This document shows, piece by piece, positions 1-16,037 of a stretch of DNA of 64,000 bases. Under the pieces are notes generated by a model, which made no database searches, had not been told where the DNA came from, and worked only from the letters and a program-made list of their open reading frames with translations. Both the position numbers and the translations under genes were made by a program. The stretch is from positions 1-64,000 of the forward strand of contig JACAAZ010000006.1 of NCBI GenBank assembly GCA_013376995.1, written 5' to 3'. The stretch is from Bacteroidota bacterium (GTDB lineage: Bacteria > Bacteroidota > Bacteroidia > Bacteroidales > UBA4417). Each line of letters starts with the position of its first letter. Positions within the stretch are counted from its first letter, which is position 1.

Positions 1-55
1 TCCGGCTTCCGGCTTCCGGCTTCCGGCTTCCGGCTTCCGGCTTCCGGCTTCCGGC
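1..55. repeat. Perfect 7-bp tandem repeat (TCCGGCT)n, about 7.9 copies, running off the window start
   Basis: Direct reading: tccggct repeated without error from base 1 to 55. Confidence 0.98.
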
Positions 56-142
56 ATTTATTCCCTTAAAGATACTCAAAATGCCCAAATGGAAATTATA
101 TTTGTACGGAAATAGGTTTACTACTATCCAATCTATAGGTTT

Positions 143-790
143 ATGAAAAAATTTGCAGTTATACTTGCTGGTTGCGGTGTATACGATGGTGCCGAGATCC
201 ATGAAGCTGTTATGACTCTCTATGCTATTGAAAAGAATGGAGCTGCTTATGAGGTCTTTGCGCCGGATATTAAGCAATATCACGTAAAGAATCACCTTAC
301 AGGCCAGGATATGCCCGAAGAAAGAAATGTGTTGATTGAAAGTGCCCGCATAGCAAGAGGGAATATTAAATCTTTGACTGAACTGGATATCAGGTCATTT
401 GACGCAGTTATCTTCCCTGGCGGATTTGGTGTTGCCAAGAACTTCTGCACTTTTGCTTTTGAAGGAGAGAATTGTTCTGTAAACCCGCAGATTGCAGGTC
501 TGATCCGCGAGGTTGTCAGTCTTCGTAAGCCTTTGGGAGCCCTTTGTATTTCGCCTGTTTTGCTGGTTAAATTACTGGGAGATGTTAAAGTCACAATAGG
601 CCAGGATGCTGGTACTATTCAAGCCATAAGGAATATGGGAGGCCAGCATGTTGAAACAACGCATGGTGAAGTGGTTATAGATGAGAAACACAGGATATTC
701 ACAACTCCATGCTATATGCTTGATGCCTCTGTCACCCAGATTGCGGATGGGGCCATAAATATCGTTAAGAAAATGCTCGAAAGCATGTAA
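143..790 (+). CDS. elbB: Isoprenoid biosynthesis glyoxalase ElbB (DJ-1/PfpI superfamily)
   Basis: MKKFAVILAGCGVYDGAEIHEAVMTLYAI...IFPGGFGVAKN...GALCISPVLL matches ElbB. Confidence 0.93.
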   Translation: MKKFAVILAGCGVYDGAEIHEAVMTLYAIEKNGAAYEVFAPDIKQYHVKNHLTGQDMPEERNVLIESARIARGNIKSLTELDIRSFDAVIFPGGFGVAKNFCTFAFEGENCSVNPQIAGLIREVVSLRKPLGALCISPVLLVKLLGDVKVTIGQDAGTIQAIRNMGGQHVETTHGEVVIDEKHRIFTTPCYMLDASVTQIADGAINIVKKMLESM

Positions 791-795
791 ATATC

Positions 796-1227
796 TCAGC
801 CTGGTTTCTTAACAGCGTATTTAATGATTTCTGCATGATCAAATGCCAGATCCGGTAGTTGTTCTGAGTTAAACCATTTTACTGCATGAGCATCATCTCC
901 TGCAAAGGCAGTGCTGTTTTCAAGACTAACAGTTCCCCAAAAGATTGTACTTATGGTCCGGTGCCTGGGGTCGCGGTTAATTGCGCTATAAGTGTGCAGT
1001 TGTTCCAGGCCTTCCGTTTCAAGCCCGGTTTCTTCCTTCAGTTCCCTTATTACGGCTTCTTCCAGGGTTTCTGTTTCTTCAACAAAGCCACCGGGTAATG
1101 CCCACATTCCCTTGAAGGGTTCGTTGCCACGTTGAATGAGAAGAATTTGCCATTTTCCTTCCAGTTTCCTGAAAACCGCTGCATCTACAGTTACTGCCGG
1201 CCTTGGGTAATCATAGCAGTATTTCAT
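796..1227 (-). CDS. NUDIX hydrolase
   Basis: Nudix box GGFVEETETLEEAVIRELKEETGL; start overlaps the rsmI stop by 4 nt. Confidence 0.93.
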   Translation of the reverse strand: MKYCYDYPRPAVTVDAAVFRKLEGKWQILLIQRGNEPFKGMWALPGGFVEETETLEEAVIRELKEETGLETEGLEQLHTYSAINRDPRHRTISTIFWGTVSLENSTAFAGDDAHAVKWFNSEQLPDLAFDHAEIIKYAVKKPG

Positions 1228-1937
1228 TCTTCATCCTCCCCGGGTTCATCGTCATTGTGCATATTTGCTTTACCTGTTGCTTCTACAACTATAACTATTT
1301 CACCCTTAGGAGGATGTGATTTATACCAGGCAAGGACTTCTACGACAGGCCCTCTCCTGGTTTCCTCATAGATCTTTGTAAGCTCGCGTGAAACACTTAC
1401 ATTCCTTGATGGCCCTAAATATTCCAATAGTTGTTCCAATGTTTTCACCAGCCTGAACGGCGATTCGTAAAGGATTAAGGTGTAGGGATTTAGAGCCAAT
1501 TCCTTTAAACGGGTCTGCCTTCCTTTTTTATGAGGAAGGAACCCTTCAAAGACGAAGCGGTCACATGGAAACCCTGAATTCACAAGCGCAGGAACGAAAG
1601 CGGTTGGCCCGGGCAGGCACTCAACCTCTATACCGGCTTGAATACAAGCTCTCACAAGAAGAAAGCCCGGGTCTGAAATACCGGGAGTACCGGCATCGGT
1701 AATCAAGGCAAATTTCTGCCCTTCATTTATTTGGCGGACGATGGAATCAAGGGCCTTATGTTCATTGAACTGATGATGTGCAAATACCCTCTTTTCAATC
1801 TCATAATGCTTCAATAATTTCGCTGAAGTCCTTGTATCCTCTGCCAGTATGATATCAACTTCCTTCAGAATTCTCAACGCCCGGAGGGTAATATCCTCAA
1901 GATTGCCAATAGGTGTCGGGACCAGGAATAGTTTCAT
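1224..1937 (-). CDS. rsmI: 16S rRNA (cytidine(1402)-2'-O)-methyltransferase
   Basis: LFLVPTPIGNLEDITLRALRILKEVDIILAEDTRTSAKLLKHY...ITDAGTPGISDPG typical RsmI. Confidence 0.96.
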   Translation of the reverse strand: MKLFLVPTPIGNLEDITLRALRILKEVDIILAEDTRTSAKLLKHYEIEKRVFAHHQFNEHKALDSIVRQINEGQKFALITDAGTPGISDPGFLLVRACIQAGIEVECLPGPTAFVPALVNSGFPCDRFVFEGFLPHKKGRQTRLKELALNPYTLILYESPFRLVKTLEQLLEYLGPSRNVSVSRELTKIYEETRRGPVVEVLAWYKSHPPKGEIVIVVEATGKANMHNDDEPGEDEE

Positions 1938-1956
1938 GATTTATATCTTAATGCTC

Positions 1957-2054
1957 AGCGCTTAGGGCATAGCGCATAGCGATGAATTTTTAAACGATTT
2001 TCAATTTCTGATAAATGCATGGCGCTTAGGGCAAATCGCACAGCGATGTTTTTA
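1957..2054. repeat. Imperfect direct repeat of GCGCTTAGGGCAtAGCGCAtAGCGATG (two copies about 65 bp apart)
   Basis: gcgcttagggcatagcgcatagcgatg and gcgcttagggcaaatcgcacagcgatg. Confidence 0.8.
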
Positions 2055-2071
2055 CTTTTTGCAACACCTGC

Positions 2072-2232
2072 CTTCCTGCTTCTGACCTCCGGCCTCCGAT
2101 TCCTTTGTCTTTATCCCTTTATCTTTTGTCTTTTGTCTTTTGTCTTTTGTCTTTTCCGTCAGCTGACGGATTTGACTTTTGACTTTTATCTTTTATCTCT
2201 TATCTTTTATCTTTTATCTTTTATCTTGCCCT
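2072..2232. repeat. Composite degenerate 7-bp tandem array (CTTCCGG-type, then TTTTGTC/TTTTATC-type) containing a 16-bp palindrome
   Basis: cttcctg cttctga cctccgg cctccga ... ttttgtc x4-5 ... tccgtcagctgacgga ... ttttatc repeats; overlaps the stop codon of the M28 peptidase gene. Confidence 0.93.
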
Positions 2233-3554
2233 TTCATCCCATCCATAAAATCCCTAACAAGCCTGAAGATATCCTTATACTCAGACAATGGTAACAGGCT
2301 GCTTTTGTCATCCGGGTTATGATATTCTGTAAACTCCTTACCCATGGAATAGATGAAAGCTGCCGGTACACCCTGTTTATAAAATGGGCAATGATCGCTG
2401 TTGCAAGATTCTCCGCGCTCCTTCACGGCCATAAGGTACTCATTGTCAGCATTTATCTTCACCATTCGCCGGTAAGCATCCTTAAAGATAGTGGCATTTA
2501 CCATCGTTATTCCTTCGCTGCCGGTTCCTACCATATCAATATTCAGAAGGAATTTAACCTGCTTAAGAGGGAAAATTGGATGCTCTGCACAATATGTAGA
2601 TCCCAGGAGGCCGGCTTCTTCACCGCTAAAGCAAAGGAAGATCATTGAATAATATGGCTGGTTTACGGGCTGGGAATAGTATCTTGCGAGGTCTAGCACC
2701 ATGGAGGTGCCGCTGGCATTGTCGTTGGCACCTGGGTAATAGACGGTATTTCCCATTCTGCCTAAGTGGTCGAAATGTGCTGAAAAAACTAGGAATGTAT
2801 CCGGCTGTACTTTCCCGCTCACATATCCGATTACATTTCTTGCCTCATGTACCCTGACGAATGAGCTTTGAATATCCAGGGCAATGTTACGGGGCTTTTT
2901 TGGGGTTGCCTCACGCCTGATATCCAGTACTGCATAGTTCCTGGCTTGCTGCCCGGCCATTACTGACCAGACAAGCTTCTGGTCACTTATAAAGATAAGC
3001 CCTGAAGCATTGAGGAAGTTGGTATATTTCAATGAATCAAGCCTGGAAAGAAGGTGTTTGTCCGTTATTCCCTTTTTGTCAACCATTACAAATTTCCCAG
3101 CATGGTTTCTTGCAACAAAGCGCTTGAATCTTTTAGGATCAGTGATGTTCTTCCCTTTGAGCTCTTCCAGTTTAAATAAGCTATTGATAGTTGGAGCAGC
3201 AGACCATACCTGGAACTGTTCCCCGGCTTTCAGAGGCTTTCCGTTTATGGTAGCTTCAACTTTTCCCGGGAACGTATTCATAGGGAATGTGTAGGCTTGA
3301 AAATAATCCCTGGAAAATGATTTCAGCCTGAACTTGCAGAATTCGCCTGCGATGAAGGAAGCGGCTTTATTATCACCATCATTTACATATCCGCGACCGT
3401 CGAAAGAAGGAGAGCTAAGGGTGTCAATGATACTACGTGCATAGGCGATATCCTGGGAATGAGAGTACATCGATTGTACCAGGAACAAAAATAATATGCA
3501 GTATTTTATCATAGAGGGATAATATCGTTGGCTGCTGGTCCTGATCATAATCAT
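2214..3554 (-). CDS. M28 family zinc metallopeptidase (secreted)
   Basis: Signal peptide; VFSAHFDHLG...PGANDNASGTSMVLDLARYY...FLCFSGEEAGLLGS M28 zinc ligands. Confidence 0.93.
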   Translation of the reverse strand: MIMIRTSSQRYYPSMIKYCILFLFLVQSMYSHSQDIAYARSIIDTLSSPSFDGRGYVNDGDNKAASFIAGEFCKFRLKSFSRDYFQAYTFPMNTFPGKVEATINGKPLKAGEQFQVWSAAPTINSLFKLEELKGKNITDPKRFKRFVARNHAGKFVMVDKKGITDKHLLSRLDSLKYTNFLNASGLIFISDQKLVWSVMAGQQARNYAVLDIRREATPKKPRNIALDIQSSFVRVHEARNVIGYVSGKVQPDTFLVFSAHFDHLGRMGNTVYYPGANDNASGTSMVLDLARYYSQPVNQPYYSMIFLCFSGEEAGLLGSTYCAEHPIFPLKQVKFLLNIDMVGTGSEGITMVNATIFKDAYRRMVKINADNEYLMAVKERGESCNSDHCPFYKQGVPAAFIYSMGKEFTEYHNPDDKSSLLPLSEYKDIFRLVRDFMDGMKGQDKR

Positions 3555-3560
3555 TCAGGC

Positions 3561-4505
3561 TCAGGCTCCAAACTTCCTGCGGATAATTTCAGTAAGAAGT
3601 ATGGCCGCCGGAGATTCAACAGGCCATTTGTGATTCAGTCGCAGAGTGCCGAGATAAGCTTCAGCTTCAGTAAGCCTGCTGGCTCCGTTTAATTGAACGA
3701 TAGCCTTTTCGTAGGCAAGCGGATCTCCGCCGAATAATTCATTGATAAATGAGAATTTCTCGGCAATTCCGATTACTGATTTAAGATCTGTAATGTGCTG
3801 GTGTCCAAGGCGGGATCCAACACTTGCATCATCATTTCCACTCGACATGATCTCTCCAAGCGACTTTTGGCTGTTTTTGTACTTATCGGCAATTGTTTGT
3901 ACAGATTCCTCCCTGGGGAAAGCTTGTTCTGTGTTTGAATGAAATCCGGGATTGGTTTCATTCCTTGAAAGGGGAGGGGCAGCATTCGCCGAATCTTCCT
4001 GTTTTACTTCCTGTTCCTGAGGCTTTACCCGGGTATGGTCTTCGCCGCTGATGACTGCTTTGCTATCTTCAATTACTTCTTCGTCTGCCTGGTATTCGAC
4101 CTCATCGGAAACTTCATTTTCTGTCACAAGTTCATGACGGATAATAGGGGATGAATCAGCAACTGCCTTCTCCTGTTTTACTGGTTCTCTGGGTAATTCC
4201 TGACTTGAAACGGGTGGAGCATCTGTTTTGGGTTCACTTTCTGTAGAAGCTTTTGCTAAGGTTTCCAGCTTACTCTCAGATTGCGAAACTGAGGGCATTG
4301 ATACTTTCTTGTGTTCCTGTTCCAAATGCTGAACGTTAATGTGGCCGATAGTCTTAAATTTTTCATACATCAGGCGCAAATCATCCAATAATAAGTCGAG
4401 GTCAACCTGGGAGATTCCTCCGGCAGGAGAATATAGAGAATTGTACCTCGCAACAACTTTTCTGATCAGTTCATCTGCTTCACGGGTGAGGCGGTTCATT
4501 TCCAT
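3561..4505 (-). CDS. Bacteroidetes-type hypothetical protein with acidic low-complexity linker and conserved C-terminal domain
   Basis: Long ORF; helical N-terminus, Glu/Ser/Pro-rich linker, C-terminus SVIGIAEKFSFINELFGGDPLAYEKAIVQLNGAS... Confidence 0.75.
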   Translation of the reverse strand: MEMNRLTREADELIRKVVARYNSLYSPAGGISQVDLDLLLDDLRLMYEKFKTIGHINVQHLEQEHKKVSMPSVSQSESKLETLAKASTESEPKTDAPPVSSQELPREPVKQEKAVADSSPIIRHELVTENEVSDEVEYQADEEVIEDSKAVISGEDHTRVKPQEQEVKQEDSANAAPPLSRNETNPGFHSNTEQAFPREESVQTIADKYKNSQKSLGEIMSSGNDDASVGSRLGHQHITDLKSVIGIAEKFSFINELFGGDPLAYEKAIVQLNGASRLTEAEAYLGTLRLNHKWPVESPAAILLTEIIRRKFGA

Positions 4506-4643
4506 GGTTAGAACAATCTATATGTTAGGTTTAATTATTCCAGAAGCAGGCTCATTACCTGCATCCTGTTTGTAAAAAATTAGTAAGTTTGTAATGTCAT
4601 CATTTGATGGATAAAAGTAGTAAAGATAAGCCATTCGTAACGT

Positions 4644-5231
4644 ATGTTTCTCGAAAATACTGCAAACCTAACTAAACGGCTTGGTTGGATTGAAGTGATC
4701 TGTGGGTCGATGTTCTCAGGGAAAACCGAGGAACTTATTCGTCGATTAAACAGGGCCAGAATCGCCAAGCAAAGGGTTGAGATATTCAAACCCGAGATTG
4801 ATAAACGTTACGATGAGATCAATGTTGTTTCTCATAATGAAAACAGCATCCGATCCATACCTGTTCAGTCTTCTTCTCAAATACTTATGTTCATTGAGGG
4901 TTGTGATGTTATCGGGATTGATGAAGCTCAATTCCTCGATGCCGACCTTCCGGCTGTCTGTAACTATATTGCCAACCAGGGTATTCGTGTTATTGTGGCA
5001 GGTCTCGACATGGATTTCCAGGGAAACCCTTTTGGGCCAATACCTGCAATAATGTCTGCCGCCGAATATGTTACGAAAGTTCATGCTATTTGCATGCGAT
5101 GCGGAGATCTGGCGCACTATTCCCATCGAACGGTCCAGGGTGACAAACTTGTTATGCTTGGCGAAAAGGAAAGTTACGAGCCCCTGTGCAGAAAATGTTA
5201 TCTGGATCAGAAAGTAGGATGGGCAGACTGA
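4644..5231 (+). CDS. tdk: Thymidine kinase
   Basis: [30 protein letters not shown]...IDEAQFLD...[15 protein letters not shown]; Zn Cys motifs. Confidence 0.96.
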
Positions 5232-5257
5232 TCAATCAATTAATAGAATCTGTTAGA

Positions 5258-6097
5258 ATGAAAAAGATTATCCCCGGGATTATCCTCCTACTCATTATTG
5301 TCGTAGTAGCTTGTAATAAGAAACCAGATGAGGATTTGGTGCAGATATCAACTCCTTATGGTGATATCGTTGTAAAATTATATGACAAGACTCCTTTGCA
5401 CCATAGAAACTTCATGAAACTGGCTGAATCCGGCTACTATAACGGAACACTCTTTCACCGGGTTATCGAGAAGTTCATGATCCAGGGTGGTGATCCGGTT
5501 TCGAGGCATGCAAAACCCGGCCAACTGCTTGGTGAAGGGGATACAAATTATACCATCCCTTTCGAATACGTCCCGGAATATATTCACAAAAGGGGAGTAC
5601 TGGCTGCAGCTCGCGAAAGTGATGATGTAAATCCAGCCAAAGCTTCATCCGGTTCCCAGTTTTATATTGTCCAGGGTAAGAGATTCACGAATGCTGAGCT
5701 TGACGCAGTAGAACTGAAGGTTGAACGCAGAACCAAGCAATATATCCTGATGAGTCTTCTTAAAAAACAGGGAGATTCGACACTTCTCAAAGAATTCAAA
5801 TCCTACGTTGATAAAAAGGATACCGCCAATATACGGGTTATTATCAACCGCTTTCACGATGAAGTAGAAGCAGAATATTTAAGGACCAGGCCATTCAAAC
5901 TTGATGTTTACCAGCGCGAGGTTTACTCAACTGTTGGCGGGACCCCGCACCTTGATGGTGCCTATACAGTATTTGGCGAAGTGGTCAGTGGCATGGATGT
6001 TGTTGATAAGATTGCCTCTGTTCAGAAAGATACGAACGACCGCCCTTTGAAAGATATTCCTATGTCCATGAAAATAATTCATCGAAAGGGGAAATAA
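5258..6097 (+). CDS. Peptidylprolyl isomerase, cyclophilin type, probable lipoprotein
   Basis: Track ORF starts at 5186 inside tdk; ATG at 5258 gives MKKIIPGIILLLIIVVVACNKK (lipobox). FHRVIEKFMIQGGDP...SSGSQFYIVQG cyclophilin signature. Confidence 0.93.
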   Translation: MKKIIPGIILLLIIVVVACNKKPDEDLVQISTPYGDIVVKLYDKTPLHHRNFMKLAESGYYNGTLFHRVIEKFMIQGGDPVSRHAKPGQLLGEGDTNYTIPFEYVPEYIHKRGVLAAARESDDVNPAKASSGSQFYIVQGKRFTNAELDAVELKVERRTKQYILMSLLKKQGDSTLLKEFKSYVDKKDTANIRVIINRFHDEVEAEYLRTRPFKLDVYQREVYSTVGGTPHLDGAYTVFGEVVSGMDVVDKIASVQKDTNDRPLKDIPMSMKIIHRKGK

Positions 6098-6144
6098 ATA
6101 TCTTCCTGAACTGTTAACCAACTTTAGATAAAGCCATATTAACC

Positions 6145-6762
6145 ATGAAAAAAGTAACATTCATTTCAATCATACTCTTATTCTTCTTCTCAATGGAAAT
6201 AGATGCTCAAAATCAAACCAAGGTGCAAATTCATACCGATTACGGTGATATCACCGTTGAACTTTACAATGACACTCCTCTGCACAGGGATAACTTCATT
6301 AAGCTTGCCAATGAAGCCTTCTTTAATGGCTCTGTCTTTCATCGTGTCATAAACGGATTTATGATCCAGGGTGGGGGAGCCCCAGCCGGTAAATCAGAGA
6401 AAGATTACCTCATCCCGGCCGAAATCCTCCCCAATCATATTCATAAGAAAGGTGCTTTGGCTGCTGCCAGAACCAATAATCCCAAAAAAGAATCCAGCGG
6501 TTCACAGTTTTACCTTGTTCAGGGGCAGGTATTTACAGATGCACAATTGAATCAGTTCGAAGCACAGAGAGGTGTTAAATTTTCGGCTGAGCAGAGATCT
6601 GCCTATACTACAGTTGGAGGTACTCCTCATCTCGACGGAGAATATACGGTATTTGGTGAAGTTGTTTCCGGCCTGGACGTGGTTGATAAAATCGCAGCAG
6701 TCAAAACAGGGCCTGGAGACAGGCCGGTCCAGCCAGTCACAATGACTATAAAGGTTCTGTAA
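6145..6762 (+). CDS. Peptidylprolyl isomerase, cyclophilin type, periplasmic
   Basis: Signal peptide; FHRVINGFMIQGGGAPAGK...ESSGSQFYLVQG. Confidence 0.95.
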   Translation: MKKVTFISIILLFFFSMEIDAQNQTKVQIHTDYGDITVELYNDTPLHRDNFIKLANEAFFNGSVFHRVINGFMIQGGGAPAGKSEKDYLIPAEILPNHIHKKGALAAARTNNPKKESSGSQFYLVQGQVFTDAQLNQFEAQRGVKFSAEQRSAYTTVGGTPHLDGEYTVFGEVVSGLDVVDKIAAVKTGPGDRPVQPVTMTIKVL

Positions 6763-6813
6763 ATCCATATCCTAAACATAAAGGATAGGAACCATTTTTT
6801 TTCCGAACTTTGC

Positions 6814-6848
6814 AAACCTGTCGCACAAAACGGCAGGTTTGTTTTTTT
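6814..6848 (+). terminator. Rho-independent terminator after the PPIase genes
   Basis: aaacctgtcg cacaaaa cggcaggttt followed by gttttttt. Confidence 0.8.
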
Positions 6849-6928
6849 ACCGGAAGCATTCAATCGCTAAACGTGTTTCTTGGTTCTGTGTAGAGATCAG
6901 AATCTAGAATCGACCAAAATACGAAGCA

Positions 6929-7951
6929 ATGAAAAATAAAGTCAACCTCCTGTTTGAAGAGATCAATCAATTTGCAACTGAGAATTCCGAAGCCCTGGAG
7001 CAGTTCAGGATCAGGTTTCTCGGACGGAAGGGACTTTTACAGGATCTGTTTGAAGAATTTAAAACACTCTCGAATGATCAGAAAAAAGAGGTTGGCCAAT
7101 TGCTGAACCAGTTAAAAAATGCTGCTCAGGATAAAATAAATCAGCTAAAGGAATCCGTTGAAGGCAGCGCTTCTTCTGAACAAGCAGACATAGATCTGAC
7201 CAAGCCGGTGATGTTTCGTGAAGCCGGTACACGCCATCCAATCAATCTGGTCAGGAACGAAATAATCAGGATTTTTGCAAGACTGGGATTTACTGTTAGT
7301 GAAGGCCCTGAGATAGAAGATGACTGGCATAATTTCTCTGCCCTCAACTTTCCGCCGGAGCATCCGGCCCGCGACATGCAGGATACTTTCTTCATTGAAA
7401 AGGATCCTGATATCGCATTGCGTACGCATACCTCTTCTGTGCAAATCCGGACTATGGAAACAACCAAACCACCGATCAGGGCTATTTTCCCGGGAAGAGT
7501 ATACAGGAATGAAGCTATATCAGCACGTGCACATTGCTTTTTCCACCAGGTTGAAGGTTTGTATATCGACAAGAATGTTTCCTTTGCTGACCTGAGGCAG
7601 ACTCTATTGTATTTTGCAAAGGAAATGTTTGCAGCTGATACACAGATCCGCCTTCGCCCTTCTTATTTTCCTTTTACCGAACCTTCTGCAGAAATGGATA
7701 TATCATGCAACTTATGCGGAGGTAAAGGATGCGGGTTCTGCAAGTACACAGGCTGGGTCGAAATTCTCGGTTGCGGTATGGTTGATCCCAACGTGCTTGA
7801 GAATTGTGGTATAGACAGCAAAGTCTACAGCGGATTTGCTTTCGGTATGGGAATAGAGCGCACAACTAACCTGAAATACCAGGTAAAGGACCTGCGGATG
7901 TTCTCCGAAAATGATATCAGGTTCTTAAGGCAGTTTGAGTCCTCATTCTAA
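6929..7951 (+). CDS. pheS: Phenylalanine--tRNA ligase subunit alpha
   Basis: RFLGRKGLLQDLF...HPINLVRNEIIRIFARLGFTVSEGPEIEDDWHNFSALNFPPEHPARDMQDTFF; GFAFGMGIERT. Confidence 0.97.
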   Translation: MKNKVNLLFEEINQFATENSEALEQFRIRFLGRKGLLQDLFEEFKTLSNDQKKEVGQLLNQLKNAAQDKINQLKESVEGSASSEQADIDLTKPVMFREAGTRHPINLVRNEIIRIFARLGFTVSEGPEIEDDWHNFSALNFPPEHPARDMQDTFFIEKDPDIALRTHTSSVQIRTMETTKPPIRAIFPGRVYRNEAISARAHCFFHQVEGLYIDKNVSFADLRQTLLYFAKEMFAADTQIRLRPSYFPFTEPSAEMDISCNLCGGKGCGFCKYTGWVEILGCGMVDPNVLENCGIDSKVYSGFAFGMGIERTTNLKYQVKDLRMFSENDIRFLRQFESSF

Positions 7952-7986
7952 ATGAAAGTCAGGATTCAATCCTGTAAATCCTTGTT

Positions 7987-8427
7987 TTAGTATATGAAAG
8001 GTAAGATCCGGTAGGTAACTGACCGGTAACCTTTGTATTGTGAGAACTTCGTTAACAGGAGCCTTTCTTCATAATTCAATTTAATCAACAGGTCTATAAT
8101 CAGAAGTATAGCCAGGAAAAGTCTCAGCAGGCTGAATTCATGAATTACCAAAGGGATTGCAAGAAGCAGGATCGAAGAATACATCGGGTGGCGAATGATC
8201 CTGTATGGTCCTGAAGTGATTAACCTGGCATTCTCACCCGGGCTGGGTGTGACTTTCAGGTTATTAAGCTGCATGCTCAGGATAGCCCAAAAAGCCAGGG
8301 ACGCAGATATTGCTACTATGATCAGGGCCCAGGCTGGCATCGTTCGCCAGGAAGAGCCCAGTACCAGGTATCCTAACGTTGAAAACTGAACAGCAACAAG
8401 TGTATATTCCAGGATTTTCTTATTCAT
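7987..8427 (-). CDS. Isoprenylcysteine carboxyl methyltransferase-family (ICMT/PEMT-like) membrane protein
   Basis: LITSGPYRIIRHPMYSSILLLAIPLV...NYEERLLLTKFSQYKGY. Confidence 0.85.
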   Translation of the reverse strand: MNKKILEYTLVAVQFSTLGYLVLGSSWRTMPAWALIIVAISASLAFWAILSMQLNNLKVTPSPGENARLITSGPYRIIRHPMYSSILLLAIPLVIHEFSLLRLFLAILLIIDLLIKLNYEERLLLTKFSQYKGYRSVTYRILPFIY

Positions 8428-8448
8428 TTGCTAATTTTTAAAGGCATA

Positions 8449-8925
8449 TCAGCCCTTGCGCCCGTCTTCTTTCTGCTTTAGTTCCAGGATATGCAGTTCA
8501 AGATCTTCAAGGATAGGACCAAAGTCCTTTGTGGTGGATTGGTTTATGGAAATTGCTGCCTGAACCCCCTGGATTTTCCTGATCAGGCTGATCATTTCGT
8601 CAATGTGATGCCTGTAAGCAGCTCCTTGTAAAATAAGAAAAAAGTTTATCTGTTTGAGTGAAGCTACCATTGGTCCTATCCCATTAGTATTGGAAACCAG
8701 GCAGATGTCGGTCCGTAGATCAGGATGATGGTAATGGAATAGGGTAAAGTAGGAAAATGAATCAGTTTTGACATTATATACCGGCAGGTTCTCAACATTT
8801 GCCAGGTCGGTATTCAAAGACTTATTGATAAAGTGAACTAACCTGTAATCCCTTAATTGTGTAGCAATGCCCACAATAGCATTGGCTTCTCCGGAAGCAA
8901 CTTCCAGGCGGATTTTCTTTGCCAT
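8449..8925 (-). CDS. IPExxxVDY family protein
   Basis: Small Bacteroidetes-type protein downstream of pyk; NANAIVGIATQLRDYRLVHFINKSL... Confidence 0.65.
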   Translation of the reverse strand: MAKKIRLEVASGEANAIVGIATQLRDYRLVHFINKSLNTDLANVENLPVYNVKTDSFSYFTLFHYHHPDLRTDICLVSNTNGIGPMVASLKQINFFLILQGAAYRHHIDEMISLIRKIQGVQAAISINQSTTKDFGPILEDLELHILELKQKEDGRKG

Positions 8926-9140
8926 GCGTTTGAAATTTTATAATAGACAAAGATAGTTTGAAAATGCAACCGCAATCTCAATCCCTCAGATTCCCGGGAA
9001 TTTCGAATTCTTATTTAATTTTTAACTATTGACTAACTTTAGACCCAATCACGTCTCCTTTTACCTGAATTACGCTTCACTCCTCAAACCACCTGTCACC
9101 TGCCTCCAGTCTATTACTGACACATGACACCTACTTTCTA

Positions 9141-9223
9141 CTTCCGGCTTCCAGCTTCCGACTTCTACTTCGTACTTCTGACTTCCCGCTTCCGGCTTCC
9201 CGCTTCTGACTTCCAGCTTCCTG
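9141..9223. repeat. Degenerate 7-bp tandem array (CTTCCGG-type), about 12 units
   Basis: cttccgg cttccag cttccga cttctac ttcgta cttctga cttcccg cttccgg cttcccg cttctga cttccag cttcctg. Confidence 0.95.
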
Positions 9224-9239
9224 CTACTTCTCAATCCCC

Positions 9240-10667
9240 TCACGCAAAGCTCAGCTTCAGCATATTCGTTTTCCCCGAAATATAGATAGGCGTACTGGCA
9301 ACATTCACCAAAAGATCACCTTGTTTAATCAACCCGGAGGCAATCAGCTTTTCTGTTATTTTTTTCAGGGTTCGGGTTGTAGAATGTTCAATCTCATCAA
9401 AGAATATCCCATTGATCCCCCACACTAGATTGAGCGTGCACAGCAGCTCATGGTCGTTGGAGAAAATATATACATCCGTTTTAGGCCGCTGGCTGCTGAT
9501 CCTGAATGCAGAATAACCCGTGTGCGTCATGGCAAGAATTGCCTTTGCATTTGCTTCCCATGCTATATTGCAAGCCGAGAATAATATTGAATCACTGATA
9601 AGATATTCCTTGTTTTCCAGGTTCGCTTCATGATGTTTGTTGTAGATGTCCTGGAATTCTTCCACTTCGCGGATAATTTTCTTCATTGTCTGAATCACTT
9701 CCACAGGATATTGACCTATAGAGGTTTCTCCACTGAGCATTAATGCATCAGCTCCGTCGAGTACAGAATTAGCTACATCATTCACCTCAGCACGCGTTGG
9801 GCGAATGTTGGAGATCATGCCTTCCATCATTTGAGTTGCAATGATGACTGGCTTACAGGCTTTAATACATTTGTTAACCAGGGTTTTTTGAACAAGCGGA
9901 ACCTGTTCCAGAGGTAATTCAACACCCAGGTCTCCTCTTGCCACCATGATCCCATCTGTTGCTTCCACGATGGCATCCATGTTTTTTACCGCTTCAGGTT
10001 TTTCAATCTTTGCAATGATTCGCACGCTAAGGCCTTCTTCAGCATATTGACTGATCGACTTCCGAAGTTCAATGATATCATTTGCTGTTCTGACAAACGA
10101 AAGAGCAATCCAGTTCACCCTGTTCTTTAGAGCAAATTGCAAATCCCTGAGATCTTTCTCAGTCATGGATGGTAAAGAAATTATTGTGTTTGGCAGGTTA
10201 ACCCCTTTTTTAGAAGAAAGGATGCCTCCATGGATCACCTTTGCTTTCACTTCATCAATTTTATTAGTCTCCAGAACACGGAAGAGGAGTTTCCCGTCGT
10301 CAAGCAAAATATCTTCACCTGGTTTAACATCCCTGGCAAATTCAGGGTAGGTGATAAAAAGCCGGTCAGAATTGCAGGTACATTCGTTAGTGGTAAAAAC
10401 AAGTTCATGCCCATCCTCCATAAATGCCTGCCCGTTTTCCATCAAGCCAATCCTTAGCTTGGGACCCTGGAGATCTGCCAGGATTGCAATATTTGTCCCA
10501 AGTTCAGTATTTAATTTATGTATCCTGTCAATTACCAGTTGGTGATCTTCATACGAACTGTGTGAAAAATTCAGCCTGAATACGCTAACCCCATTTATGA
10601 TGAGGTTTCTGAGCATCTCTTCTGATGAGGATGCAGGCCCGATAGTGGCAACAATTTTAGTTTTCAT
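9240..10667 (-). CDS. pyk: Pyruvate kinase
   Basis: KTKIVATIGPASSSEEML...FRLNFSHSSYEDH...IIAKIEKPEAVKNMDAIVEATDGIMVARGDLGVE...MLSGETSIGQYP. Confidence 0.97.
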   Translation of the reverse strand: MKTKIVATIGPASSSEEMLRNLIINGVSVFRLNFSHSSYEDHQLVIDRIHKLNTELGTNIAILADLQGPKLRIGLMENGQAFMEDGHELVFTTNECTCNSDRLFITYPEFARDVKPGEDILLDDGKLLFRVLETNKIDEVKAKVIHGGILSSKKGVNLPNTIISLPSMTEKDLRDLQFALKNRVNWIALSFVRTANDIIELRKSISQYAEEGLSVRIIAKIEKPEAVKNMDAIVEATDGIMVARGDLGVELPLEQVPLVQKTLVNKCIKACKPVIIATQMMEGMISNIRPTRAEVNDVANSVLDGADALMLSGETSIGQYPVEVIQTMKKIIREVEEFQDIYNKHHEANLENKEYLISDSILFSACNIAWEANAKAILAMTHTGYSAFRISSQRPKTDVYIFSNDHELLCTLNLVWGINGIFFDEIEHSTTRTLKKITEKLIASGLIKQGDLLVNVASTPIYISGKTNMLKLSFA

Positions 10668-10672
10668 TTTTC

Positions 10673-11590
10673 CTATATTTTCTGGTTCCTCACGGAATCT
10701 TTAATTTCAATATAAATATTCTCTATTCCATTGACTTTGGCAATGATATCCACCTTAATCTGCTCAACAAGATCCTCGGCCTGGTATACGGAAAGTCCAT
10801 CATCCAGGTCCAGGGAAAGCAGAACCAGGTATTGGTTGTTACCCATTACCATGGTCTGGACCCTGTTAATATGTTTCACCTGTTTGTATGAGCGTATGAC
10901 TTCCTTCATTTGGCTTCGCTCCTCACGGGGGATGCTTTCACCTATGATAAGGCCTTTTACTTCGATGATAAGTAACAATGAAATAACGAGCAATAGGACT
11001 CCAACAGAAATACTGCCTATTGCATCGAATACAGGATTCACCTGCCAGGCAAGAAATGTAGTGATTAATACTATGACCAGCCCTGTTAATGCAGCTGCAT
11101 CTTCCATGATCACGACAATCAGGTTGACGTTCTGAGAGTCCCGGATAGCCCTGAAGAGTCTTTTTTTTGTTCCTTTTCTGAACTCCTTGTAAGCAACCTG
11201 GAAGGATTTGCCTTCTATGATAACTGAAGATCCAAGTACTATGAAGATCCATTTAATGTTCGTAATTTCTTCCGGATGCAGCACTTTCTCAACCCCTTCA
11301 TAGATTGAAAAAAGTGCGCCAATGAAAAACAGGAGCACTGCCACGATCAGCGACCAGAAGAATATTTCCCTGCTGTAGCCAAAACTGTGCATTTCGGTAA
11401 CTGTGCGTTTAGCCCTTTTATTACCAATAAGCAACAGGATTTGATTGAAAGAATCTGCAGTAGAATGAATAGCTTCTGCCAGCATAGCGGCGCTTCCAGT
11501 AATAAACGATACGAGAAATTTAATGATAGCGATGAGCAAATTACCCCCCAGGGCAAATACAACAGCTTTTGGAGATTCATGAGCGCTCAT
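10673..11590 (-). CDS. Cation diffusion facilitator family transporter
   Basis: SAAMLAEAIHSTADSFNQILLLIG; multiple TM; C-terminal cytoplasmic domain. Confidence 0.93.
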   Translation of the reverse strand: MSAHESPKAVVFALGGNLLIAIIKFLVSFITGSAAMLAEAIHSTADSFNQILLLIGNKRAKRTVTEMHSFGYSREIFFWSLIVAVLLFFIGALFSIYEGVEKVLHPEEITNIKWIFIVLGSSVIIEGKSFQVAYKEFRKGTKKRLFRAIRDSQNVNLIVVIMEDAAALTGLVIVLITTFLAWQVNPVFDAIGSISVGVLLLVISLLLIIEVKGLIIGESIPREERSQMKEVIRSYKQVKHINRVQTMVMGNNQYLVLLSLDLDDGLSVYQAEDLVEQIKVDIIAKVNGIENIYIEIKDSVRNQKI

Positions 11591-11680
11591 CAGGAAAGGC
11601 TTTTGTTAAAAATACAAATTACTGCGGTCAGAAAAATCAATAATTAAAATGATAATGCACCCTAAACCAATTCAATCATC

Positions 11681-11800
11681 AATAACCATTGAGTGATCCA
11701 CCAGCTGGCGGAAATGACCATAGAATGACAACAGAATGACAATTGAATGACTAATGAATGACTAATGAGTGACAATTGAATGACCATCGAATGACTATTG
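11681..11800. repeat. Degenerate 11-bp tandem array (AATGACNATTG), 8 phased units plus a partial copy, interrupted by a 16-bp near-palindrome
   Basis: aatgaccatag aatgacaacag aatgacaattg aatgactaatg aatgactaatg agtgacaattg aatgaccatcg aatgactattg from 11713 to 11800; preceded by tccaccagctggcgga and aataaccattg-agtga. Confidence 0.95.
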
Positions 11801-11853
11801 AGTGAGCTCTTATCCGCCCTTCGCCCTCAACCCTTCGCCCTAAGCTCTTCGCG

Positions 11854-12591
11854 CTATGCCTTCGAAATATCCAGCTCAATCAGTGCTTTCATCGCAGCAT
11901 TTTGCTCGGCACCTTTGATCGAATAATCACGACCTTTACCGTGGGCTTGTTTGTCGATCAGGACTTCAACCACATACTGTTTGGTGTATCCGTGTCCAAC
12001 CTCACTCAACAGGAGAAACTCGACTATCCTCTTTTCTCTTTGAGCCCACTCTATCAGCCTGCTTTTAAAATTGGTGTCGTTATTTTCGAGTTCATCAAGG
12101 TCGAAATGCTGCTGGATTACTTTCTCAATAATAATCCTTCTTGTGAATTGGTATCCCTTATCCAGGTAAATAGCGCCAATTACAGCCTCAAAGGCGTCTC
12201 CGTTCATCGATTTGTAAACATTGTTGCCTTCTGAATTAGCCTGGATAAGTTTATCAAGCCCTAATTTTTGTGATACTTTGTTCAATGCCGACCGACTCAC
12301 AATGCGGGAGCGCATCTCCGTGAGGAATCCTTCGCCTTTGATCGGGAACATCTTGAACAGGTGATCTGCCACGACAGCGCTCAGGATTGCATCACCTAGA
12401 TACTCCAGCCTTTCATTGCTAACTTTAGCACCATTATTAAGCTCTTTGGCAAGTGATTTATGTCGGAAAGCGAGTTTATACAAAAAAATATTTCCAGGAT
12501 AGAACCCGAAAATATTCTTTAAGGATGAGTATAACTCTTTGTCTTCTGAAAGGATAACCCGTATGGGCTTAATGACGTCGAACGGTGACAA
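11854..12591 (-). CDS. rnc: Ribonuclease III
   Basis: NERLEYLGDAILSAVVADHLF; DAFEAVIGAIYLDKG; C-terminal dsRBD. Confidence 0.96.
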   Translation of the reverse strand: MSPFDVIKPIRVILSEDKELYSSLKNIFGFYPGNIFLYKLAFRHKSLAKELNNGAKVSNERLEYLGDAILSAVVADHLFKMFPIKGEGFLTEMRSRIVSRSALNKVSQKLGLDKLIQANSEGNNVYKSMNGDAFEAVIGAIYLDKGYQFTRRIIIEKVIQQHFDLDELENNDTNFKSRLIEWAQREKRIVEFLLLSEVGHGYTKQYVVEVLIDKQAHGKGRDYSIKGAEQNAAMKALIELDISKA

Positions 12592-12593
12592 GG

Positions 12594-13850
12594 CTATTGT
12601 TCGAATTTTTTGAAGATAATGGAAGCATTGTGCCCGCCAAAGCCGAAAGTATTACTTAATGCAGCATTAACGGTTCGCTTGGAGGCAGTATTAAATACGA
12701 AGTCAACGTTCTGGTCAATTTCATCATCATCTGTGAAATGGTTGATGGTAGGAGGGATAATATCATTCTGAACTGCCAGGATGCAAGCTACAGCTTCAGC
12801 AGCACCTGCAGCTCCCAGTAGATGCCCGGTCATAGATTTTGTTGAGTTCACGGCGATCTTTTTCGCGTGCTCACCAAAAAGCCCGGTAATTGCTTTGATC
12901 TCTGCTATATCACCAAGAGGGGTAGACGTGCCGTGAGTATTGATATGATCAATAGCTTCTAGCTTCATTCCGGCATCCTCAAGTGCGTATTTCATGGCAT
13001 TCTTAGCACCTAATCCTTCAGGGTGAGGAGCAGTCATGTGGTGAGCATCAGCACTCATGCCGGCACCGGCCATTTCGCAGTAAATGCGGGCACCACGTGC
13101 AAGAGCATGCTCCATCTCTTCAAATACAATGGCAGCACCTCCTTCACCCATAACAAAACCGTCACGATCCTTGTCAAAAGGCCTGGATGCTGTTAAAGCA
13201 TCATCATTCCGGGTTGACAGGGCATGAAGTGAGTTGAACCCGCCAATTCCGGCAGGGTTGATCGTAGCCTCAGAGCCGCCGGTTATAAACATATCTGCTT
13301 TTCCAAGCCTGATATAGTTATACGCATCAATCAAGGCATTTGCAGAAGACGCACAGGCAGAAATAGTTGCAAAATTGGGCCCCCTGAATCCATATTTAAT
13401 CGAAATATGACCGGCCGCAATATCGGCAATCATTTTCGGGATAAGGAAAGGCGTGAACCTGGGAGTGCCATCACCGGTCACAAAACCGGCAACTTCATCG
13501 TAAAATGATGACATTCCGCCGATTCCAGAAGCCCATATAACACCAACCCTGTCAAGATCCACTTTTTCTAAGTCAATGCCAGAATTAAGAACAGCTTCAT
13601 CAGCTGCAACAAGCCCAAACAAAGTGAAAGGGTCATACTTGCGTACTTCCTTGCGGTCGAAGAAATTAAGAGGATCAAAATTCTTGACCTCACATGCAAA
13701 TTGCGATTTGAACTTTGACGCATCGAAACGCGTGATAGGACCAGCACCACTAACCCCGGATACCAAACCATTCCAATATTCAGAAACGGAATTGCCTACC
13801 GGAGTTAGTGCGCCAAGGCCCGTAACTACTACTCGCCTTAACTTCATCAA
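12594..13850 (-). CDS. fabF: Beta-ketoacyl-ACP synthase II
   Basis: RRVVVTGLGALTPVGNSVSEYWNGLVSGVSG...SACASSANALIDAYNYI...NTHGTSTPLGD...GHLLGAAGAAEAV. Confidence 0.97.
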   Translation of the reverse strand: MMKLRRVVVTGLGALTPVGNSVSEYWNGLVSGVSGAGPITRFDASKFKSQFACEVKNFDPLNFFDRKEVRKYDPFTLFGLVAADEAVLNSGIDLEKVDLDRVGVIWASGIGGMSSFYDEVAGFVTGDGTPRFTPFLIPKMIADIAAGHISIKYGFRGPNFATISACASSANALIDAYNYIRLGKADMFITGGSEATINPAGIGGFNSLHALSTRNDDALTASRPFDKDRDGFVMGEGGAAIVFEEMEHALARGARIYCEMAGAGMSADAHHMTAPHPEGLGAKNAMKYALEDAGMKLEAIDHINTHGTSTPLGDIAEIKAITGLFGEHAKKIAVNSTKSMTGHLLGAAGAAEAVACILAVQNDIIPPTINHFTDDDEIDQNVDFVFNTASKRTVNAALSNTFGFGGHNASIIFKKFEQ

Positions 13851-13861
13851 ACGTGATTTAC

Positions 13862-14098
13862 TTATTTCGCGTTGTTTTCGATGTAAGCAACAGCTTCACT
13901 TACAGTACCGATCTTCTCGGCTTGATCGTCGGGAATAGCAATGTTGAATTCTTTTTCGAATTCCATAATCAACTCAACGGTATCCAGTGAATCGGCACCG
14001 AGGTCGTTGGTGAAACTTGCTTCTGGGGTAACTTCTTTTTCGTCAACTCCAAGCTTATCAACGATAATAGCTTTAACTCTTGTTGCAATGTCGGACAT
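13862..14098 (-). CDS. acpP: Acyl carrier protein
   Basis: [44 protein letters not shown]. Confidence 0.97.
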
Positions 14099-14128
14099 TG
14101 TTGAACTCTTTTAATTGGTTTTGGGCTG

Positions 14129-14160
14129 CAAAGAAAAAGCATTTACCGTAACAAAACAAA
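14129..14160 (-). promoter_or_regulatory. Candidate Bacteroidetes-type promoter for acpP-fabF-rnc
   Basis: Minus strand TTTTG...TTTCTTTGCA; -7 box is one mismatch from TAnnTTTG. Confidence 0.4.
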
Positions 14161-14184
14161 AAATGATTTAAATATTTTGGTCTC

Positions 14185-14204
14185 TACTGATATAACTATC
14201 AGTA
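14185..14204. promoter_or_regulatory. Perfect 8-bp inverted repeat TACTGATA-taac-TATCAGTA in the acpP/purN intergenic region
   Basis: Direct reading. Confidence 0.45.
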
Positions 14205-14342
14205 AATTAGAAGTGTATGAATTGATATCTTAATCTTGGCTGCCTGCGGGAGGCCATAGGTGTACAATACAACTAAGGTTTCATTCCTGCAATTTCACTT
14301 ACTTTGTACAATCATTAATTTTACCCTAATAATCCTGGCTGA

Positions 14343-14927
14343 ATGGCTGAAACACCCACTATTGCCATATTTGCTTCCGGAAATGGAACTAATGCTCAGA
14401 ACCTGGCTGAATATTCCCGGGGGAAGGAAAGTCTCAATATTTCCGCTATTTATTGCAATAATCCTGATGCTTATGTGCTTGAAAGGGCGAGATCTCTTGG
14501 CATCCCATCCGTCCAATTTGGCAGGAACAACTTTTACCAGGAGCGTTGGATACTGGATGACCTTCGGAATCGAAAAACAGATTGGATCATCCTGGCTGGC
14601 TTTTTATGGCTGATTCCCGGGTACCTGCTCAAAGAATTCCCGAATAGGATTGTTAATATTCACCCTGCTCTACTTCCCAATTTCGGGGGCAAAGGCATGT
14701 ACGGTTCCAGGGTTCATGAGGCTGTTATCGCTTCCGGGGTGAAGGAAAGTGGCATTACCATTCATTTTGTGAACGAAAATTACGATGAGGGCCAAATCAT
14801 ATTCCAGGCAAAATGTAAGATTGAAGCTGATGATACTCCCATTACTCTTGCCAATAAAATCCATGGTTTGGAACAGGCTCACTTCCCTGAAGTTGTCGCC
14901 AAACTTATTTCAATGAATAATACGTAG
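14343..14927 (+). CDS. purN: Phosphoribosylglycinamide formyltransferase
   Basis: IAIFASGNGTNAQNLAEY...LAGFLWLIPGYLLKEFPNRIVNIHPALLPNFGGKGMYG. Confidence 0.95.
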   Translation: MAETPTIAIFASGNGTNAQNLAEYSRGKESLNISAIYCNNPDAYVLERARSLGIPSVQFGRNNFYQERWILDDLRNRKTDWIILAGFLWLIPGYLLKEFPNRIVNIHPALLPNFGGKGMYGSRVHEAVIASGVKESGITIHFVNENYDEGQIIFQAKCKIEADDTPITLANKIHGLEQAHFPEVVAKLISMNNT

Positions 14928-14960
14928 AGCAGAGAAATGGCAATTTGCTTAAGAGATTGT

Positions 14961-16037
14961 TCAGATATATTCCTTCACTTCAACTTCCCCTTTTAGTACC
15001 ATGAGGCCATTGAAGGCAAGAGCCCTCATTTCATCCTCCCCGGGATAGGTATATACCGGTGCGAATTTGAAGACGCGCTCAATGATCATATTGGTGATCC
15101 ATTTGCTATGTGCTACGCCTCCAGTTAGCAGGATGGCATCAACTTCGCCTCTGAGGACAGGAACCATGGATCCGATCGATTTTGCAACCTGGTAGGCAAG
15201 TGCTTCCAGAATGAACTTTGCTTCCTTGTCTCCATTCTGAGCCCGCTGTTCTGCTTCATAAGCGCTATTGGTTCCAAGGTGAGCTACAATACCACCATTG
15301 CCCACTACCATCTTGATCACTTCCTTTTCTGTTAGTTTCCCGCTGAAACAAAATCGGACAAGATCACCTGTCGGCAGGGTACCACTGCGTTCGGGCGAGA
15401 AAGGACCTTCCCCATCCAACCCCTGGTTGACATCAATTACACGTCCTTTCTGATGGGCCCCGACGGTAATTCCCCCACCCATATGAACTACAATGAGATT
15501 AAGGTCCTCATAACGTTTCATAATGCTTTTGGCATGCTGGCGTGCAATGGACTTCTGGTTCAAAGCATGAAAAATAGATATGCGCTTAAAGGCTGGATGA
15601 CCTGAAATTCGGGCAATATCATCCAATTCATCAACTACGACAGGATCTGCAATATAGGCTTTGGCATTGGGAAGAGAGTTTGCTATCTCATCTGCTATCA
15701 ACCCACCCAGGTTACTGGCATGCTCTTTTATGGGATGTTCATAAAGATCACGCTTCATGGCCTCATTTACCAGGTATACCCCGGATGCAATGGGTTTAAG
15801 CATGCCTCCCCTTCCAACAACAGCTTGAATTTTATCAAGTTGAATTTCTGCTTCTTCAAGTTCACGGTAAATAATCTCCTTCCTGAAATGGAACTGATCG
15901 GCAACATGCTCAAACTTTGCAATCTCCTCGCTAGGATGTGTAATGTTCTTTACAAATACCGGGTTCGTATTCTGGTAAACCGCTATCTTGGTAGAAGTGG
16001 AACCTGGATTAATCGCCAGAATGCGGTAATCTTCCAT
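14961..16037 (-). CDS. buk: Butyrate kinase
   Basis: RILAINPGSTSTKIAVYQN...VHMGGGITVGAHQKGRVIDVNQGLDGEGPFSPERSGTLP. Confidence 0.95.
   Translation of the reverse strand: MEDYRILAINPGSTSTKIAVYQNTNPVFVKNITHPSEEIAKFEHVADQFHFRKEIIYRELEEAEIQLDKIQAVVGRGGMLKPIASGVYLVNEAMKRDLYEHPIKEHASNLGGLIADEIANSLPNAKAYIADPVVVDELDDIARISGHPAFKRISIFHALNQKSIARQHAKSIMKRYEDLNLIVVHMGGGITVGAHQKGRVIDVNQGLDGEGPFSPERSGTLPTGDLVRFCFSGKLTEKEVIKMVVGNGGIVAHLGTNSAYEAEQRAQNGDKEAKFILEALAYQVAKSIGSMVPVLRGEVDAILLTGGVAHSKWITNMIIERVFKFAPVYTYPGEDEMRALAFNGLMVLKGEVEVKEYI

Follow-up and report, generated by a model that had tools for sequence, protein, structure and literature searches.

Bacterial heptamer arrays have been known for years, and their period and placement have lacked an explanation. 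The GGGAATC repeats of Xanthomonas and the GGGGA(C/T)T repeats of Nostoc lie almost exclusively nearer to the ORF on their 5' side, in whichever direction that ORF runs, and include cases that overlap the stop codon (Rehm et al. 2015, PMC4692102). The same report cites the proposal that a 7-bp period corresponds to the length of DNA held by a polymerase (PMC4692102). Oriented direct repeats of TAACTGA have been described in Beggiatoaceae, Cyanobacteria, and some Bacteroidetes, and some of these also overlap stop codons (MacGregor 2015, PMC4679880). Heptamer-based families scattered within one species are illustrated, in the part of the work on prokaryotic satellites that treats them, by GATAGRA in Chloroflexus (PMC6749651). 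In this study, we analyzed a 7-bp array at the 3' edge of a gene in an uncultured Bacteroidales bacterium. Its main units, AAAAGAT and AAAAGAC, are without GGG, and the array therefore belongs to the heptamer kind and not to the quadruplex sub-kind.

The window is a 64,000-nucleotide stretch of genome G000. A composite 7-bp array occupies positions 2069-2227, between an M28 peptidase gene (PF04389, 2214-3554) and an rsmI-like 16S rRNA methyltransferase gene downstream of it (TP_methylase, PF00590, 1224-1937), both on the minus strand. TRF and reading of the sequence placed the 7-bp periodicity at 2118-2227; the distal block at 2069-2117 falls under the array-finding threshold and was recognized by eye. 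Outward from M28 on the minus strand, the order is AAGATAA units, AAGTCAA, a 16-bp palindrome, AAAAGAC units, and degenerate GGAGG/GGAAG units. The proximal block (2171-2227, minus strand) reads outward as (AAGATAA)n and then (AAGTCAA)2, corresponding to TTTTGAC/TTTTATC units on the plus strand. The M28 gene ends GGG CAA GAT AAA AGA TAA, in which GAT AAA AGA TAA is repeat sequence, so the proximal block encodes the final D-K-R and contributes the TAA stop, which lies within a repeat unit (2214-2216, minus strand). The perfect palindrome TCCGTCAGCTGACGGA at 2155-2170, which has no strand, splits the array. It is followed by the middle block (2118-2155, minus strand; outward (AAAAGAC)n, plus-strand TTTTGTC units) and the distal block (minus strand; outward GGAGG/AGAAG/GGAAG-type heptads, plus-strand CTTCCTG/CTTCTGA/CCTCCGG). 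The sequence, TRF, and the open reading frame thus confirm the composite array with an internal M28 stop codon described by the first-pass annotation. The CTTCCGG-type units that it listed are present as variants, and exact CTTCCGG copies lie not in this array but at 1-55. Its statement that every unit carries TAA, with stops in all frames, is true of the GATAAAA block but not of the GACAAAA units, which hold no stop.

Other repeats accompany the array. A second short 7-bp block of GGGCATA/GCGCATA units (1953-1981, plus strand) adjoins the rsmI start; it belongs to another family and has the opposite polarity. A diverged copy is found at about 2022-2046, and the two are diverged copies of GCGCTTAGGGCATAGCGCATAGCGATG, each followed by T-rich sequence. 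The TAGGGCT/TAGCGCA family to which they belong also forms stop-abutting arrays at C2 170778 and C40 250174. The contig begins within a further array of the same class as the M28 array, with perfect CTTCCGG units (1-55, minus strand), and another lies at 9118-9225 (minus strand), separated by 14 bp from the stop codon of a gene on the same strand (9240-10667). An 11-bp array of AATGACAATTG type is present at 11713-11805, and similar GGTCATTCAAT units occur again at C2 170400 and C1 485577. About 60 copies of TCCGTCAGCTGACGGA with at most one mismatch were found in G000, together with a variant, TCCGCCAGCTGGCGGA. With at most two mismatches, 31 of 33 copies in 1.62 Mb of G000 were intergenic, sometimes within arrays. 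The palindrome is nearly missing from the 15 other genomes of the genus, and five exact copies occur in G021, which belongs to another family. The terminator scan at the M28-rsmI junction gave candidates only on the plus strand and none on the minus strand, which both genes use. An intrinsic terminator was rejected because the minus strand has no G+C-rich hairpin with a T run. Folding of the minus-strand RNA was only mildly above that of shuffled sequences (z -1.86), and no Rfam family was found in window positions 1-15000.

The junction was compared among relatives, all of the genomes compared being MAGs. Among named records, Bacteroidales/Lentimicrobiaceae MAGs are the closest. Several relatives also have M28 next to rsmI. 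G000 has 276 bp between the two genes, and the syntenic, array-free junctions of G005 and G003 measure 3 bp and 5 bp, respectively; in L083, which is more distant, M28 and rsmI overlap by 4 bp. G000 has gained intergenic sequence here relative to these genomes. In the near relative G014, the unrelated units AAATTGC and AAAATGT lie straight 3' of M28, and a TGA stop is located in the first unit. The comparison of M28 C-termini proposed in the first-pass annotation therefore found the stop within the first unit of the array in both G000 and G014. Among M28 orthologues of the genus, the protein is kept up to F-M-(D/N) and only the last few residues vary. These results indicate that the array replaced dispensable C-terminal codons and gives the last three residues and the stop. 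Of the two origins suggested earlier, expansion of a repeat from the gene 3' end fits best with the short-gap orthologues and with unrelated arrays that hold the stop in their first unit.

Two further array-bearing gene pairs of G000, nuoJ-nuoK and korB-korC, were compared across the genus. Between nuoJ and nuoK, G003 and G005 have 12 bp, and G000 has 251 bp that include a GGAAG array. At the same junction, G002 and G013 have 7-bp GTTAATC-type arrays, and G006 has 8-bp-type TGTGATAA/ACATTAAC arrays, with similar units in G011. The last nuoJ codons of G006 and G011 (AATGCGATAATTAAATAA type) are the first array unit. Most species have about 40 bp between korB and korC; the gap measures 164 bp in G014 and 386 bp in G000. 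G000 KorB ends ...EE-TAG at the array start, and the nearest tail type, ...EEK-stop, is one codon longer. These results indicate that the same junctions gained arrays of different units in different species. The C-terminal tail of G000 NuoJ (KIEEKEIRREN; L117 11056-11595) is longer than those of relatives and appears by eye to be array-derived, with AAGGAGN heptads; the lag-7 score of the coding part is not raised.

We then surveyed 1.62 Mb, or 32% of G000, using a home-made gene caller whose stops are exact and whose starts are approximate. All 68 lag-7 runs were intergenic and none was coding; five Markov-simulated intergenic sets gave 0. Lags 8 and 11 gave 16 runs each, every one of them intergenic, and lags 5, 6, and 10 gave 1, 1, and 0 intergenic runs. 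The M28 array is thus one member of a genome-wide intergenic class, mostly of 7 bp with some of 8 and 11 bp, located at gene edges, where the arrays lengthen the gap. Among gaps of at least 100 bp, arrays were present in 5% of divergent, 9% of tandem, and 18% of convergent gaps. Units forming perfect doublets were common to several loci at 29 of 40 loci, compared with 12.6 for shuffled, composition-matched units; TAACTGA was not among these 40 units. Contig ends and N-gaps fall inside arrays at window positions 1-55, at the start of G000:C16, at about 227150 in C1, and at about 4550 in C3. Repeat instability caused by loss of mismatch repair was rejected, as G000 has a MutS open frame of 879 aa and MutS is present in 14 of 15 relatives.

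The arrays are anchored at stop codons. Of the 37 array spans in tandem gaps, 14 lay at most 10 bp from the upstream stop (4.8 expected), and 8 touched or overlapped it (0.8 expected); arrays were not enriched on the start side. A random distance from array to stop, which the first-pass annotation had named as counting against its reading, is therefore not what is seen. TAG was the stop codon in 14 of 21 array-abutted genes compared with 257 of 1143 overall, three times too often (Fisher p 1.5e-5). Lag-7 matching also extended into the last 7 nt of abutted genes (0.42 vs 0.29, p 0.002), a test that is partly circular because the cases were picked for closeness.

The arrays are oriented with respect to gene edges. 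Of the segments no more than 50 bp from a gene edge, 42 of 45 in G000 and 18 of 19 in four relatives had a G-rich outward-reading strand, at starts and stops alike; because segments sharing a gap and related species are not independent, a simple binomial reckoning would overstate the certainty. All 30 gaps with two arrays of opposed skew began G-rich and ended C-rich. At a looser threshold, there were 34 G-to-C and 5 C-to-G transitions, the contrary ones being mostly AT-rich segments. When array-bearing tandem gaps were divided into sextiles, the mean GC skew fell from +0.31 to -0.30, and it changed in the same direction in convergent and divergent gaps. Array-free gaps had a GC skew near zero, with weak skew at starts only: it was -0.146 in normal 30-nt leaders and -0.007 in array-free trailers. 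At more than 50 bp from both gene edges, the polarity relative to the nearest gene faded (17/29), and an order rule far from genes stood at 5 to 1 or 4 to 0 depending on the threshold, with too few pairs. The 11-bp arrays alone did not follow the nearest-gene rule (6/14). A purine bias of the sense strand was weak overall (23 vs 13 segments) and became strong only once edge distance was counted. Polarity follows the gene edge and not transcription. A process tied to the direction of transcription or replication would not be expected to be mirror-symmetric about the gap. The loci L141 (G011:C374:1324-1485) and L134 (G002:C66:68624-68659) have TTTAGGG/TTTTAGGGG units that equal or closely resemble telomere repeats of the plant type, with the G-rich strand outward from the gene. 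A fold-back or hairpin origin of opposed arrays was rejected. As reverse complements, two arrays in one gap were not significantly more alike than arrays of different gaps (p 0.12), which indicates that they are not in general one folded-back array.

We tentatively favor an origin by 7-nt slippage or extension of outward 3' ends combined with selection, while holding it at somewhat short of an even chance. Such an array would arise at the 3' edge of the M28 gene, run through its last codons, and then provide D-K-R and TAA. Its units would come from repeated copying of a DNA 3' end facing away from the gene at an intergenic nick or break, each time out of register by 7 nt, roughly the stretch that a polymerase contacts. 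The strand so made would be C-poor and G-rich. On one side, selection would keep the array from passing the last functional codon, and on the other from reaching the next start; two such ends face to face would produce the G-to-C head-to-head gaps. The GC skew of CDS ends is only +0.07, so the composition of the seed is too weak to explain the polarity bias. The sharing of unit families among loci above the shuffled expectation speaks against local copying alone, and the fading of polarity far from genes also fits selection acting near genes.

Plain heptanucleotide slippage followed by selection only is nearly as likely. Arrays would then arise anywhere between genes and both ways, and some orientations would be removed: a G-rich sense strand before a start, through mimicry of ribosome sites or quadruplex formation, and a C-rich sense strand after a stop. 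This agrees with a polarity that is strong only up to about 50 bp from an edge and close to chance farther away, with ordinary leaders that are already skewed, and with the rarity of arrays in divergent gaps. However, the rule also holds in convergent gaps, and we know of no demand for a G-rich sense strand after stops there. Moreover, array-free trailers are without skew. It is rather improbable that the arrays are scars of break-healing, in which C-poor, G-rich repeats were added to outward intergenic 3' ends in the fashion of telomeres and the ends were then rejoined. If true, this would explain both the head-to-head unrelated arrays and the same polarity in Bacteroidota, Xanthomonas, and Nostoc.

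We consider it unlikely that the arrays are functional mRNA-end elements, with purine- or G-rich 3' trailers that shield transcripts and C/A-rich leaders that leave the starts accessible. Stop edges in G000 carry mostly GGAAG/AAAAG and start edges mostly outward GTTATTG (CCAATAAC in sense; p 0.002), as such elements might, but this split of units by edge is missing in four relatives. Most Xanthomonas repeats are transcribed (Rehm et al., PMC4692102); however, the same junction has unrelated units in different species and no array in others. The functional 3'-end element raised as the second possibility by the first-pass annotation is disfavored by these wholly different units, together with the mild folding and the lack of a terminator-like site on the minus strand. 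The arrays may still have a subtler role in RNA or DNA, given how strongly their orientation is tied to the gene edge.

A mobile cassette with inverted ends that inserts at stop codons, its ends turning into arrays, is quite unlikely. It would agree with net insertion at the same junctions, outward G-rich ends, TAG enrichment at the junction, and unit families common across loci, but paired arrays within a gap are mostly unrelated to each other, and gap sequences read by eye had no common core and no target duplication. An assembly artefact of repeats in a metagenome-assembled genome is very improbable: one array is cut by a contig start and two arrays contain N-gaps, but independent arrays occupy the same syntenic junctions in different species and many are imperfect with unique flanks.

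A rule of orientation that depends on the gene edge and not on transcription, applies to many unrelated units, and recurs in three phyla points to a single general process, mutational or selective, at gene ends. The stop-codon takeover also shows concretely how non-coding repeats can come to alter stop codons and C-termini. Like the TAACTGA repeats, the arrays are intergenic heptamers with a mostly fixed orientation to genes, sometimes over the upstream stop, and their short-gap relatives are repeat-free; the TAACTGA repeats differ in having one fixed unit, mostly in 2-6 copies and mostly before starts. For prokaryotic satellites, the part that treats heptamer microsatellites does not describe polarity or gene-edge anchoring (PMC6749651). 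The likeness to telomere repeats is in strand polarity only, the G-rich strand running 5' to 3' outward, with TTTAGGG-like units in some relatives; unlike telomere repeats, the arrays are internal and their units are variable. The closest likeness is to the Xanthomonas and Nostoc heptamers, which also have a 7-bp period, are intergenic, and have the 5' end of the G-rich strand next to the ORF whatever its orientation. Those repeats are under-represented between divergent ORFs, arrays here are also rare in divergent gaps, and overlap with stop codons is common to both. Xanthomonas and Nostoc have one quadruplex-capable GGG unit type per species, whereas many unit families, mostly without GGG, occur here, with composite arrays and head-to-head pairs in one gap. 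The polarity rule itself was reported earlier for Xanthomonas and Nostoc; its demonstration in the arrays of this bacterium and four relatives is new here.
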